Source: Mitosporidium daphniae
Taxonomy: Eukaryota; Microsporidia
Direction of reading: 5' to 3'
NCBI RefSeq assembly: GCF_000760515.2
Contig: NW_013546589.1
Location: forward strand, 1 to 50,766
DNA: 50,766 bases
The notes below the pieces were generated by a model, which had not been told where the DNA came from, searched no databases, and was given only the letters and a program-made list of their open reading frames with translations. A program made the position numbers and the translations under genes. Shown piece by piece: positions 576 to 47,693 of this stretch; the first letter of the stretch is position 1, and each line of letters starts with the position of its first letter.

Positions 576-902
576 ATGGCGAGTCAAGAAGCAGTCTGTC
601 GCAAAACAATTCGTCTTGTAGAATATAATACAAATCTCAGGTTATCTTTCTGTTTATTGCGGTCCGCCATTGGTCAACGATGCCAAATATAGAAAACCGG
701 GCTACATGGCAAAGTTTTTATTAATCCGATAGGCAAAAGACTGCATGTGGGTTCTATTTTACTGGCTTGTTTTTAAATTGCATTGGCGCAAACCAGCTAA
801 TTGGCCATATTCTGGATTTCTTGATTGGGCCGGTAGTTCCATTCAATGCAATTTTATAAGCTTACAGAAAGTCTCTTAGCTTGGCGACACTCATTCAATT
901 AA
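576..902 (+). CDS. Possible small two-TM membrane protein, four exons
   Basis: This is a tentative model with no family recognised. It starts at ATG 576. Removing three introns typical of this genome (618-640, 23 nt; 714-739, 26 nt; 833-867, 35 nt) gives an 80-residue protein ending at TAA 902. It has two hydrophobic stretches, around LVIFLFIAV and MWVLFYWLVF, and a tryptophan-rich tail. Unspliced, no frame here exceeds about 40 codons. In its favour are the intron sizes and borders and the amphipathic result. Against it are the absence of any homology anchor and a second-intron acceptor that is AAAG rather than TAG. Apart from this, I see nothing in 371-1094. Confidence 0.3.
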
Positions 903-1094
903 ACTCGAATAAATAATTTTGGATTTGGAGAGGCCTAAAATACATTCCAGCTAAAAAGGGGAGTATTATGGATAGCGCAGCGGTAGCTCGGGCCCCAAGC
1001 TATGGACGGGAAGGACATTTGTTACCGCGGTAAGCTTCCAAACGCACTGAATCGAACTTGATGCCCAAATAACGCCAAGAAATTTATTACACTT

Positions 1095-3736
1095 TTACTC
1101 GATCCCGAAGCCGAGAATATTTTCGAGAGATTTATCCAGCCTTTTCTTGAGCATTTCCATCGAATTGTACGATGGAAGGTCCAATCTATTAAAGCAGGTG
1201 TGCGAGACAGGCAAGTGTGATGGCGGGGAGAGAGTCTTTTCGATGGTGAATTTCCTGGGCCCATCTGAGCCTTGAAGATCCCTGAATCCGTTGAGCGGGA
1301 GTTTTGAGGATCCCGTGACAAACTGCAGCAAACGGATTTTTTTTTCAGCAGGATAACTATGTACAACCTTCCAAAACCATATAATCAGCGGGTCTGATTC
1401 GGTACAGTTTTTATAGATGGTGTTCTCCTTCCAATCGGAAATATCGATTTGGGTGACGCCCGAAATAAGCAGCTAAATGATAAACAATGCACCGCATACT
1501 TCCAATTCGCGCGCATCAAATATGGAGATCAACTCGCGGGGAACAATCTCATAAAATCCTCGGTTAATTTGGTGCATTTGCTCTGAAATCCGTTTGTAAG
1601 TTTTCCATTCCACAAGCTTTCTAAGTTAATTTAGCAATAAAAGGGGGCAGCCGCTTACTCGATGTACAGTCTTTTGTTGTCGTCGGTCACAGATATGGAT
1701 GAGCCGTTTGGAATCAGGTCGACTATGATGGGATCGCCGCCCCCAAAGCGTACCTCCTCTACACTCATTGTCTCGAAAATCTGGTCGTGAATAGGATTGT
1801 TGAGCATCCAAATGAGACTTGAATACAGTTCCGAATCTATGGCCTCGAGGTCCGAAAGCATGGTACACGCAGCCCTATCCAATAACCGCTTGTAAAATGC
1901 AGGCACAAAATAAGCATCGATGAGGAACCCATGAAATGCGGCCAAGCCCAAAATTCGGCCGACAAAGTAGAAATAGGCCATGTGTTCGGGATTGATATAA
2001 GATCCCGGGCTTATTTGAAGCGTGTAGTTGTCTTGAGAGGAGTATTCAAATAGAGAATAATAGGGGTTGAAGATCTCTTTTGCCAGGAGGAAAAAGAATT
2101 CTCTCGATATTCCGCCATAATCGAGCCCCTCTTCGCCCTCAAAAATGATCTGCGGTTTTTTTTTCAATGACGAAAGCGTAAGATTGGAGATGACGTTGAA
2201 GGAATCTTCCAAAAGATTGTCTCTTCTAATGGGAACCTTGAAATATCCGCTCAAACTGAGTTCATAAGTCTTTGCCCTGAAATATGCCATTTTGCGATTA
2301 AAGTCTCGCTTATACTTTGGAATTGAAGGGCTAGGGAGGTGATGGTGGGTCCATTGAAACTTACTCATTTAAAGGAGACAGCCTTGGATCATCCCATGTG
2401 GTGACCTTTGTTTGGTGGTTTATAAAATAAGACCGACCGTGATCATCGACCCTCATCTCCCAGTTCGGTGGGAGCTGACCGAGTTGAGAAATGGCCACTC
2501 GCACCTCGGAATGTGGATCTCCTTGAGCAATGCAGGACAACGCTCCGCTAAAAGATCAGCATCAACAAAAAGGCAATTACCCGATGTTCAAGTTGACAAG
2601 AGATCGAGGGTCTACCCAAGTGGTGGTACGCGAGTTATGATCAACAAAATACGGACGGCCGTTGGTTGTCATTCTTCGTTCTATCATGAAATTACGACAA
2701 CATTTTACCCCAGCCCATGGGAAGAGGTGTGGACTGCGATGGCGGGATCAACTGCATTGGCTGGCCATCGCAGACGTCCCCATAATTGCCGTCTTCGCCA
2801 TGAGCGAGAAACTCTTGGCCTCGTAGTTGCAAGTTATGGAATTCTTGTTCAAGAGCCTTTGTCGGTGCTCGAGTAGGCTTCAAAGGCGGTCTGATGTCAG
2901 CCAAAGTGGTGGATGTGCTTTTTGCTAAAAGAGACGATGATGAAGGAGGGGTCCACGAAGTTGTCCTGGTATTGTGATCAACATAGTAAACTTTTCCCAA
3001 ATGATTTCTTCGAGATTCCCATCCTGGAGGAAGCCGGATGTTGGGATCTGACGATCTTGGAGTCAAAGTAACCGGCCCGCCCCCGATATCCTGCACAAAC
3101 ATCCTGCTTGGTGAAGAAGGCTCGGACAAATATATTATCGGTGAATGCCCACCATTCCCGGTTAGATCGGAGGAAATCAGTATGGAAAGATGCCCCCTTA
3201 TGCGTTTTCTAGTGTTTGTTGAAGGTCGAAGTGCAATATCGAACGATCTTGAGCACGAGGGGCGCAGAAAAATGTCCTTAAGAATGTCATTTATCGAGAC
3301 GTTAACTACCCCCATAAACCCTTGATCATCTGTGAGGGAAAATCTTTTGCGATCAAAGATTTGGATCGATATGATGGAGCTTAATTGAACGGACCGTCTA
3401 GAGGGTCAGCAATAGAACACGTGTACATTATCACAGAATAGTCCCACGTTGGCGATGTGGTGGCAGTTTTTGGCGGATCGCAGGTCCAGGGACAGCTACT
3501 ATCGCATGTCATGATGAGAAACGGCTCCGGCATTCCTATTGATTAACAGAGCCTGCCTGGTTTACTAAAAAGACCAAAGATCCCTCTTCTGGGCAGTCCA
3601 TAGGCGCGAATGACTAGGTAGGGTGAAATCGCAAACCTTCAGAGGTACCTGTAACTCGAAGATCCCTTGCGGCGCTTGCAACGGTAGTGATGGCTGCACA
3701 TGATGCGGCCTCATTAATGGAAAATGTCTCAGACAT
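1095..3736 (-). CDS. RSP5: NEDD4/Rsp5-type HECT E3 ubiquitin ligase, 9 exons
   Basis: This is the ubiquitin ligase that sorts membrane cargo and regulates many PY-motif substrates. The joined protein is 795 residues, close to the usual size of about 800. An N-terminal C2 domain contains [12 protein letters not shown] and QGFMGVVNV. Three WW domains follow, for example [15 protein letters not shown], and then a complete HECT domain with [16 protein letters not shown]. The catalytic cysteine lies in [11 protein letters not shown] at about residue 763, and the C-terminus is GFGIE. The eight introns are 3614-3648, 3536-3565, 3398-3426, 2681-2708, 2548-2580, 2331-2364, 1621-1658 and 1473-1499 (27-38 nt). 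Each restores an uninterrupted Rsp5-like alignment. The start ATG at 3736 is the first in frame, 27 bp after the SGF29-like stop on the same strand. Confidence 0.95.
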
Positions 3737-3763
3737 GCATTAAAATGAAAACAATTTAGCAAT

Positions 3764-46604: not shown

Positions 46605-46624
46605 ATTTAATGGAAATTGTACAT

Positions 46625-47178
46625 CTAAATGGTGGACAGCCGCTTTTCGAACGATTTTATCGTCAATTGGGCCATTTTGGAGAAAATGGGATAAAGGGTC
46701 GTTCCGTACACGGAGTTGGCAAATTCAAATTCCACGCGAAAATCGACAAGCGTCTCGCTGTCCGAGTTCGGCGTGAATTGCCACCGAGTGTGCAAGTTGT
46801 TGAAAATGGTCGAATTCAAACACTTGGCCTAGGGTCAATTAAGTCCGCAGCAAGATGGGATACCTCTATTGACTGGTAAGGGATACCTATGACCCTCGAA
46901 ATATAGCGCAGCTGGATGGCGATCACATCTATTTGCAGCTCTGCAAACGTAACTGTCGGAACAGGATTGGTTTGGCCAATGATGGACGAGCATGAGGGAT
47001 TGTCCGAAATGTTGCTAAACGAAATTATCCTGGACCGCTTGATACCGGGTATGAACTCGGAATATTTCTGCACATCAGAAACGCACGAATACACCTTGAG
47101 GATGTTGTGAGGAAGCACGTGTTGCTGAGAAAAGCTGGAATGAAGGCCTTTGGTAATTATATTCCCAGAGGCGGACAT
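46625..47178 (-). CDS. COQ10: Coenzyme Q-binding START protein Coq10
   Basis: Helps deliver coenzyme Q in the respiratory chain. 172 residues after removing a 35-nt intron (46829-46863). The family pattern is [82 protein letters not shown] and [13 protein letters not shown] 47178 follows directly on an AT block; it gives a short Ser-rich N-terminus with little presequence. It shares a 16-bp promoter with NAA10. Confidence 0.92.
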
Positions 47179-47194
47179 TAATTTTAAAAATTTT
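47179..47194. promoter_or_regulatory. 16-bp AT-only spacer between divergent COQ10 and NAA10 starts
   Basis: Between the ATG of COQ10 (minus, 47178) and the ATG of NAA10 (plus, 47195) lie 16 bases, all A or T, near-palindromic (aattttaaaaatttt). Both starts are well supported by family N-termini, so 5' UTRs must be nearly absent or overlap the partner gene. Confidence 0.65.
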
Positions 47195-47693
47195 ATGGCC
47201 ATCTGCATTAGACGCTGTACCATTGACGATGTTCTTGACCTGCAAGAGTGCAATCTTATATGTCTTCCCGAAAACTACCAAATTAAATATTACATGTACC
47301 ACCTAATTGCTTGGCCACAACTCTCATACATTGCCTTAACCAGCGACGGCAAAATTGCCGGCTACGTCATGGGAAAGCTGTAAGTTTTTGTTTGTTTTTC
47401 TTAGCGAGGAAGACGACCCAAATAAAGTGACCGGCCATTTTACATCCATTGCAGTTAAAAGAGAATACCGGCGATTGGGGATCGCCGAAAAGTTGCTTCA
47501 CCAGTCCCTCAACGCCATGGCCAGCATATACAAAGTGGAGAGCATATCCCTCCACGTGCGGCAGTCAAATGTTGCTGCCATCTCGCTCTACTCCAAGAAG
47601 CTTGGATTTGAGATTTCTGAGCACGAGCCACAGTATTATGCAGATGGCGAAGATTCCTACCTCATGAAAAGAGTATTTTCATACACCCAATAG
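47195..47693 (+). CDS. NAA10: Catalytic subunit of N-terminal acetyltransferase NatA
   Basis: 157 residues after a 25-nt intron (47380-47404; GTAAGT donor, T-rich, CTTAG acceptor). Close match to Ard1/Naa10: [60 protein letters not shown] with the acetyl-CoA site [26 protein letters not shown] and [14 protein letters not shown]. It lacks the C-terminal extension of many orthologues. Confidence 0.97.

Follow-up and report, generated by a model that had tools for sequence, protein, structure and literature searches.

We analysed a 50,766-nucleotide (nt) stretch of Mitosporidium daphniae DNA (contig NW_013546589.1; hereafter the window), in which conserved protein-coding genes such as RSP5, ATG3, COX15 and METTL16 are interrupted by very short intron-like inserts. 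An earlier reading of this DNA (the original prediction) had proposed 58 introns there and had correctly placed the organism as a fungal relative: M. daphniae is filed under Microsporidia in the NCBI taxonomy, and PMC5701793 describes it as a Daphnia parasite with a mitochondrial genome. Placed independently of earlier coordinates, 38 introns in the window were supported by homology, 37 of which were 23–38 nt long (median 28, mean 29.1, all GT-AG). The single long one measured 145 nt (15731–15875, minus strand). Every insert that was placed has GT at its start and AG at its end and breaks up a conserved protein, which becomes whole again when the insert is removed; GT-AG ends were required during the placement of all 38, and counts of boundaries are not independent of that requirement. 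The evidence is at sequence level throughout, comprising protein homology, gene models and public protein annotations.

We built profiles from 60 homologues each of RSP5, COX15 and ATG3 (every second one listed), excluding the M. daphniae COX15 and ATG3. Relative to translations with all introns retained, splicing raised the profile score from 299.6 to 834.9 bits for RSP5, from 389.4 to 498.7 bits for COX15 and from 95.5 to 273.3 bits for ATG3. The 14 introns of these three genes were each shifted over about 320 frame-keeping placements centred on the prediction, whether or not splice signals were present. The predicted GT-AG pair came top (ties included) in seven of the 14, was first or second in nine, and was the best among GT-AG pairs in 12; at the two exceptions, 3536–3565 and 6396–6427, rival GT-AG pairs gained 3 and 1.9 bits. 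Alignments span the junctions in METTL16, NAA10, uL11, the insulin-degrading enzyme (IDE)-like gene, two of three RAI1 introns and the AAA-ATPase, and the remainder rests on domain matches. The introns are listed below with their positions in the window; ranks refer to the placement test, and P0121 and P0241 are the public COX15 and ATG3 proteins of M. daphniae.

1473..1499, minus: RSP5 intron, 27 nt; rank 1 of 320 placements (three tied), best GT-AG pair
1621..1658, minus: RSP5 intron, 38 nt; rank 2 of 321, best GT-AG pair
2331..2364, minus: RSP5 intron, 34 nt; rank 1 of 321
2548..2580, minus: RSP5 intron, 33 nt; best GT-AG pair, overall rank 109 of 321
2681..2708, minus: RSP5 intron, 28 nt; rank 1 of 320
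3398..3426, minus: RSP5 intron, 29 nt; best GT-AG pair, rank 30 of 320
3536..3565, minus: RSP5 intron, 30 nt, ends uncertain; rank 12 of 321, a 39-nt GT-AG alternative gains 3 bits
3614..3648, minus: RSP5 intron, 35 nt; rank 1 of 321, retrained model favours 3614–3636
6396..6427, minus: ATG3 intron, 32 nt; rank 25 of 321, a 47-nt GT-AG alternative gains 1.9 bits, P0241 ends within it
6637..6664, minus: ATG3 intron, 28 nt, AAG end; rank 1 of 320
6782..6809, minus: ATG3 intron, 28 nt; best GT-AG pair, overall rank 177 of 320, removal restores a conserved exon
7098..7123, minus: ATG3 intron, 26 nt; rank 1 of 316, also removed in P0241
14207..14235, minus: eL33 intron, 29 nt; joined by hand, Ribosomal_L35Ae match starts at residue 13, just past the junction (weaker support)
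15107..15135, minus: AAA-ATPase intron, 29 nt, GTG donor; unbroken AAA and lid regions
15731..15875, minus: AAA-ATPase long intron, 145 nt; junction crossed by a gapless alignment
18506..18532, plus: STE23/IDE-like intron, 27 nt; alignment to insulin-degrading enzyme
18987..19012, plus: STE23/IDE-like intron, 26 nt; alignment to insulin-degrading enzyme
34651..34676, minus: KRR1 intron, 26 nt; second KH domain complete (2–91 of 91)
37200..37234, plus: BET4 intron, 35 nt; joined protein with three PPTA repeat stretches
38562..38593, plus: uL11 intron, 32 nt; joined protein 1–163 aligns to solved uL11 1–164
38621..38654, plus: uL11 intron, 34 nt; same alignment of joined protein 1–163 to solved uL11 1–164
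39880..39907, minus: COX15 intron, 28 nt; rank 1 of 320, junction identical in P0121
40101..40126, minus: COX15 intron, 26 nt; rank 2 of 316, junction identical in P0121
41722..41744, plus: METTL16 intron, 23 nt (the shortest); Pfam profile filled, N-terminal alignment weak (21.6 and 9.7 bits)
41790..41818, plus: METTL16 intron, 29 nt, GTT donor; Pfam profile filled, N-terminal alignment weak
41895..41923, plus: METTL16 intron, 29 nt; gene model and Pfam profile, region absent from the alignment query
41935..41959, plus: METTL16 intron, 25 nt, GAG end; gene model and Pfam profile, region absent from the alignment query
42083..42109, plus: METTL16 intron, 27 nt, GTG donor; removal joins the GIDIGTG motif
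42184..42217, plus: METTL16 intron, 34 nt; gene model and alignment
42561..42591, plus: METTL16 intron, 31 nt; gene model and alignment
42665..42693, plus: METTL16 intron, 29 nt, GTT donor; placed by hand, alignment and Pfam profile
43340..43365, minus: RAI1 intron, 26 nt; RAI1 domain and alignment
43523..43548, minus: RAI1 intron, 26 nt; RAI1 domain and alignment
44223..44247, minus: RAI1 intron, 25 nt; RAI1 domain (5–307 of 333), outside the alignment
44659..44684, minus: OTU protease intron, 26 nt; OTU domain (1–128 of 128)
45008..45035, minus: OTU protease intron, 28 nt; OTU domain (1–128 of 128)
46829..46863, minus: COQ10-like intron, 35 nt; Polyketide_cyc (7–125 of 126)
47380..47404, plus: NAA10 intron, 25 nt; junction crossed by a gapless 149-residue NAA10 alignment

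The original prediction had been anchored on families that become continuous only after the inserts are removed, and this was borne out for RSP5, ATG3, METTL16, RAI1, COX15, BET4 and NAA10. For eL33, also named as an anchor, the joined protein matches its domain, with weaker support because the junction lies at the edge of the match. METTL16 (a U6 methyltransferase according to its PDB records) and RSP5 are the most interrupted genes in the window. Without its eight introns, METTL16 fills positions 15–298 of the 299 in its Pfam profile, and a shortened version, with one stretch left out, aligns with human METTL16 and with psilocybin synthase, weakly over the first 66 residues. In uL11, two introns fall inside the first 13 codons, and the joined protein aligns over residues 1–163 with a one-residue gap. 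Removing the 145-nt intron joins 'LQELVIWPLR' to 'YPHIFERLG' in a gapless alignment. This intron is about five times the usual length, and the AAA-ATPase gene that holds it has VCP-like, CDC48 and AFG2 proteins as its best matches, with YTA7 also matching.

Gene models came from an in-house segment model applied to the window and 200 kb of the same genome (251 kb in total), followed by the homology tests. The genome used is a 4.66-Mb draft assembly of 147 contigs, in which the window is contig C62 and contains 3 N. Two runs limited to introns of 18–45 nt gave 49 and 56 window introns, 44 of them in common, which makes the original count of 58 plausible; 38 have homology support, and about 20 are without homology verification. 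We judged the model call at 42151–42177 false, as well as those at 18205–18233 and 18259–18289, which lie inside or bordering an open reading frame with a MADS-box (SRF-type) domain on the opposite strand (17896–18285, minus), where opposite-strand model introns are probably false. We abandoned free self-training of the gene finder: one run swelled to 712 introns with a run of T as its 'branch', and another had only 13 confident introns to train on.

We evaluated the length distribution against controls. Under a uniform length prior and bare GT/AG boundaries, 85 introns fell at 20–40 nt compared with 29–43 for nine control dinucleotide pairs, and there was no excess at 41–61 nt (18 for GT/AG, 16–35 for controls). 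Using trained signals and a flat prior of 12–150 nt over the 251 kb, 266 of 388 predicted introns measured 20–40 nt, with the peak at 25–29 nt; the corresponding numbers in six letter-permuted controls were 45 of 329, 76 of 452, 59 of 441, 50 of 317, 42 of 286 and 40 of 243. A narrow peak below 40 nt is the main population in this flat-prior run and, at 37 of 38, in the homology set, as in the Paramecium-type class of short introns. The raw intron count was rejected as a signal, showing no separation (372 versus 97–367 in 12 letter-permuted controls), and the count of GT[ATG]..CTRAY..TAG motifs was not decisive (11 on the plus and 28 on the minus strand; 16.8 ± 6.0 in single-strand Markov controls). 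The total model score did separate (5920 versus 3741–4361 in controls, with a no-intron baseline of 3400). Because the coding and signal model behind this score was trained on GT-AG splicing, our case rests on the length peak and homology.

The 23–38 nt class is dominant rather than exclusive, since the window holds the 145-nt intron and, outside the window, a 60-nt intron probably interrupts an RBM39-like gene of this genome (L049); the uniformity of the original prediction is thus retained as a strong tendency (37 of 38). The introns could be real and their narrowness overstated, with a sizeable class of 45–150 nt missed and short introns simply easier to place. Both longer introns surfaced without a systematic homology search for long ones, and the gene models permitted no more than 45 nt. 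Under the flat prior, however, the 113 calls of at least 45 nt were spread at about one per nt, below controls, whereas those at 20–40 nt lay far above them, and we consider a missed class of this kind unlikely.

Intron density was high. The models gave 372 introns in 194.6 kb of coding sequence (CDS) across the 251 kb, or 1.91 per kb; the flat run, restricted to 20–40 nt, gave 266 in 192.3 kb, or 1.38 per kb. These model-based counts include false calls, and homology alone sets a floor of 38 introns in 39.8 kb of window CDS, or 0.95 per kb. The combination of high density and narrow size range in the original prediction therefore stands, at about 1–2 introns per kb of CDS with a peak at 20–40 nt, a density within the Paramecium-type class. 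The introns are spread along the CDS: 24 introns of nine genes had a mean relative position of 0.44, and seven of them fell in the first eighth.

For Paramecium, translation-coupled selection has been proposed to act against stop-free introns whose length is a multiple of three (3n). It is doubtful that translation-coupled decay likewise shapes intron length and content in M. daphniae, even though just five of the 37 short homology-supported introns are 3n (p = 0.006, one-sided binomial test) and an in-frame stop occurs in each of the five. Consistent with such selection, none of 39 stop-free 3n GT..AG exon segments in RSP5, ATG3 and COX15 raised the profile score by more than 3 bits. The deficit of stop-free 3n introns in the flat run (13 versus 53.5 expected), however, may be detection bias because such introns are hard to detect. 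Stop-bearing 3n introns were not depleted in that run (60 versus 43), and the UPF1 zinc-binding domain (UPF1_Zn_bind) was unmatched in the genome search, its absence not being proven.

We next describe the splice signals of the 37 short introns. Donors were GTA in 30, GTG in four and GTT in three, and acceptors were TAG in 32, AAG in two, CAG in two and GAG in one, frequencies that may be inflated because the first model rewarded GTA and TAG. The original prediction had described just this predominance of GTA and TAG, and its GTG and GTT donors were also seen; its GTC donor occurred in none. The exon base at −1 was G in 15 and that at −2 was A in 18. The introns were loose at donor positions +4 to +6 and T-rich (38%). 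CTAAC or CTGAC branch sites, originally proposed, are not a rule, since CTRAC occurred in two introns, near the chance level (1.0 ± 1.0 in shuffled sequence); just the loose YTRAY was enriched (16 versus 6.9 ± 2.3 shuffled). In the 16 introns with a strong match, the branch A lay 5–17 nt before the intron end. An internal AG preceded the terminal one in 24 of the 37, so the acceptor cannot be defined simply as the first AG.

The genome encodes U1, U2, U4, U5 and U6 small nuclear RNAs (snRNAs), all above the Rfam gathering score and with their recognition elements kept: ACUUACCUG near the 5' end of U1, GUAGUA in U2, ACAGAGA in U6 and GCCUUUUAC in U5. Slu7 and Prp18 are both present, so short introns do not require losing either of these second-step factors. 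Prp18 matches of equal score and length occur at three places (contigs C56, C80 and C118 of assembly G000; L046–L048), as recent copies or redundant contigs. TIGR01642 (U2AF) had 30 matches, all below threshold and almost all falling on its RRM part. The one match inspected, which also covered a C-terminal part, reads as an SR-rich protein that we take to be RBM39-like. Loss of U2AF is one candidate reason why these introns leave no room for a polypyrimidine tract. RED_N was unmatched in the genome search, which does not show its absence.

Single short introns are already present in the public annotation of M. daphniae. The public COX15 (P0121) is identical to residues 87–437 of our model (351 residues), spans both the 26- and the 28-nt intron, and has both junctions right over the covered part. 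Its contig measures 875,858 bases, and the protein is therefore not derived from the window contig. It presumably comes from the 2025 reassembly, the annotation of which, according to PMC12449221, used BRAKER/funannotate and transcript sets from public databases, one of them for M. daphniae; the word "intron" is absent from the main text of that article. The public ATG3 (P0241, 209 aa; gene at 6314–7219, minus strand) misreads three of the four introns: it removes 7098–7123, reads through 6782–6809, skips nearly all of the conserved exon 6665–6781 via one longer gap and ends inside 6396–6427. It lacks the conserved exon because the short introns were misread, and it scores 152.3 bits on the ATG3 profile versus 273.3 for our model. 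Together, the two junctions of P0121 and the one of P0241 suggest that the inserts would be removed from mRNA; being annotations, they bear on this indirectly. ATG3, the one gene examined this way, is an example in M. daphniae of ultrashort introns breaking automatic annotation, and claims of lost genes or domains that rest on a proteome of this kind should be rechecked. The literature searched, with the genome paper of Haag et al. 2014 and Whelan et al. 2019 outside it, held no description of M. daphniae intron length or density.

These observations indicate that the window inserts are very probably ordinary major-class (U2-type) spliceosomal introns near their minimal length. A spliceosomal origin, as judged from sequence, is supported by the homology-favoured GT-AG ends, the five major snRNAs and the public COX15 junctions. 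Splicing would proceed by intron definition, with U1 and U6 reading a donor reduced mainly to GTA through the elements given above, U2 pairing through GUAGUA with a loose YTRAY branch site mostly 5–14 nt before the end, and exon ligation at a preferred TAG. The short size may be the outcome of reductive genome evolution in which introns were kept, with no special splicing machine, and a minority of longer introns would persist.

Several points weigh against this reading. The intron set was first built with a 45-nt ceiling that hides longer introns, and such introns occur, at 145 nt in the window and 60 nt in L049. Five of the 14 introns in the placement test ranked 12, 25, 30, 109 and 177 among about 320 signal-free placements; our guess is that loose local conservation could account for these ranks. 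Exact ends are uncertain for at least three of the 37 short introns (3536–3565, 3614–3648 and 6396–6427). SF1-HH was unmatched and no U2AF65 scored above the cut-off in a six-frame search, in which genes are broken by introns and absence is not shown.

Two further alternatives concern the nature of the inserts. Ciliate internal eliminated sequences and bypassing elements have similar sizes, and the inserts might be skipped by DNA excision or translational bypassing, which is highly improbable given the GT-AG boundaries and the full major snRNA set. Sequencing or assembly errors or decayed genes, a thought prompted by a draft assembly with 3 N in the window, can be dismissed with near certainty, as the inserts have GT-AG ends and a common length peak across many conserved genes and the public COX15 has identical junctions on another contig.

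As spliceosomal introns, the inserts belong to an ultrashort kind already known from ciliates, nucleomorphs and Encephalitozoon. The claim that they rival the shortest known holds in part: they fall within the 22–76 nt of Encephalitozoon, which PMC3629993 counts among the smallest known, and near the roughly 25 nt of some ciliates, but introns of 15–17 nt in Stentor and mikrocytids and of 18–21 nt in the nucleomorph are shorter (PMC9505925, PMC10245619). Encephalitozoon cuniculi, a core microsporidian, shares the phylum, GT-AG ends and an overlapping size range (PMC3629993), whereas M. daphniae has 38 homology-supported introns in this one 51-kb window and a loose branch motif. Compared with core-microsporidian introns, those of M. 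daphniae are many, with degenerate donor positions +4 to +6 and a loose branch site. Very short introns at relatively high density are reported for Paramecium, the Bigelowiella nucleomorph and dicyemids, and in the first two 5' splice sites are described as largely restricted to GT(A); no branch signature is described (PMC2483917). These are unrelated lineages, and M. daphniae retains a weak YTRAY enrichment. Stentor coeruleus has GU-AG introns of 15–16 nt without a strong branch consensus, but these are shorter and have a near-fixed branch A, whereas M. daphniae lengths are spread; the table in PMC9505925 lists Slu7 and Prp18 as not found, and M. daphniae has both. Mikrocytids are likewise parasites with uniform tiny introns (16–17 nt), though theirs are few (224 predicted for one species) and shorter, with strongly conserved sequences, and their spliceosome is reduced, with U2, U4 and U6 snRNAs identified (PMC10245619), compared with all five major snRNAs in M. 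daphniae.

What stands out is how many introns there are, and how loosely they are specified, in an early relative of core microsporidia, which have almost none. In a reconstruction of fungal introns across 263 species, 15 Microsporidia have a mean of 0.01 introns per kb of CDS, compared with 0.22 for the microsporidian ancestor and 2.53 for Rozella (PMC8476143); the word 'daphniae' is absent from its main text. M. daphniae might represent a halfway stage, in which introns shrank while numerous and loose, with a full major snRNA set, and mass loss and a strict consensus came later. We hold this to be evenly balanced, because it rests on one species and a comparison with published figures. If true, intron loss would date after the M. 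daphniae split, and few, strict introns could be compared with many, short and loose ones within one phylum. An early-branching relative with about 1–2 introns per kb would shift microsporidian loss later and would show that introns can shorten before they are lost. PMC2483917 formulates a rule that intron-poor lineages evolve strict signals and short-intron lineages stay degenerate, and M. daphniae would allow a within-phylum test of it.

Other features of the window and its genes were also noted. The IDE/STE23-like gene (18300–19640, plus strand) seemingly encodes just the N-terminal part, some 300 residues, of a protein whose family members have about 1000, and the next gene starts at 19683. 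No introns were placed in 19683–28809, where GC content reaches 55% compared with about 44% in other fetched stretches of the genome; this region holds CNOT1 (one open reading frame of more than 2200 codons), a 387-aa protein without a match and a polysaccharide deacetylase. A tandem 27-base repeat (7.4 copies, 7718–7917, plus strand) encodes NPAAFASTS repeats and opens a gene that weakly matches the nucleoporin NDC1. After the M. daphniae protein, the best COX15 match, at 58% identity, is a COX15 labelled Sphagnum compactum (P0122), pointing to an unrecognised relative within a moss sample.

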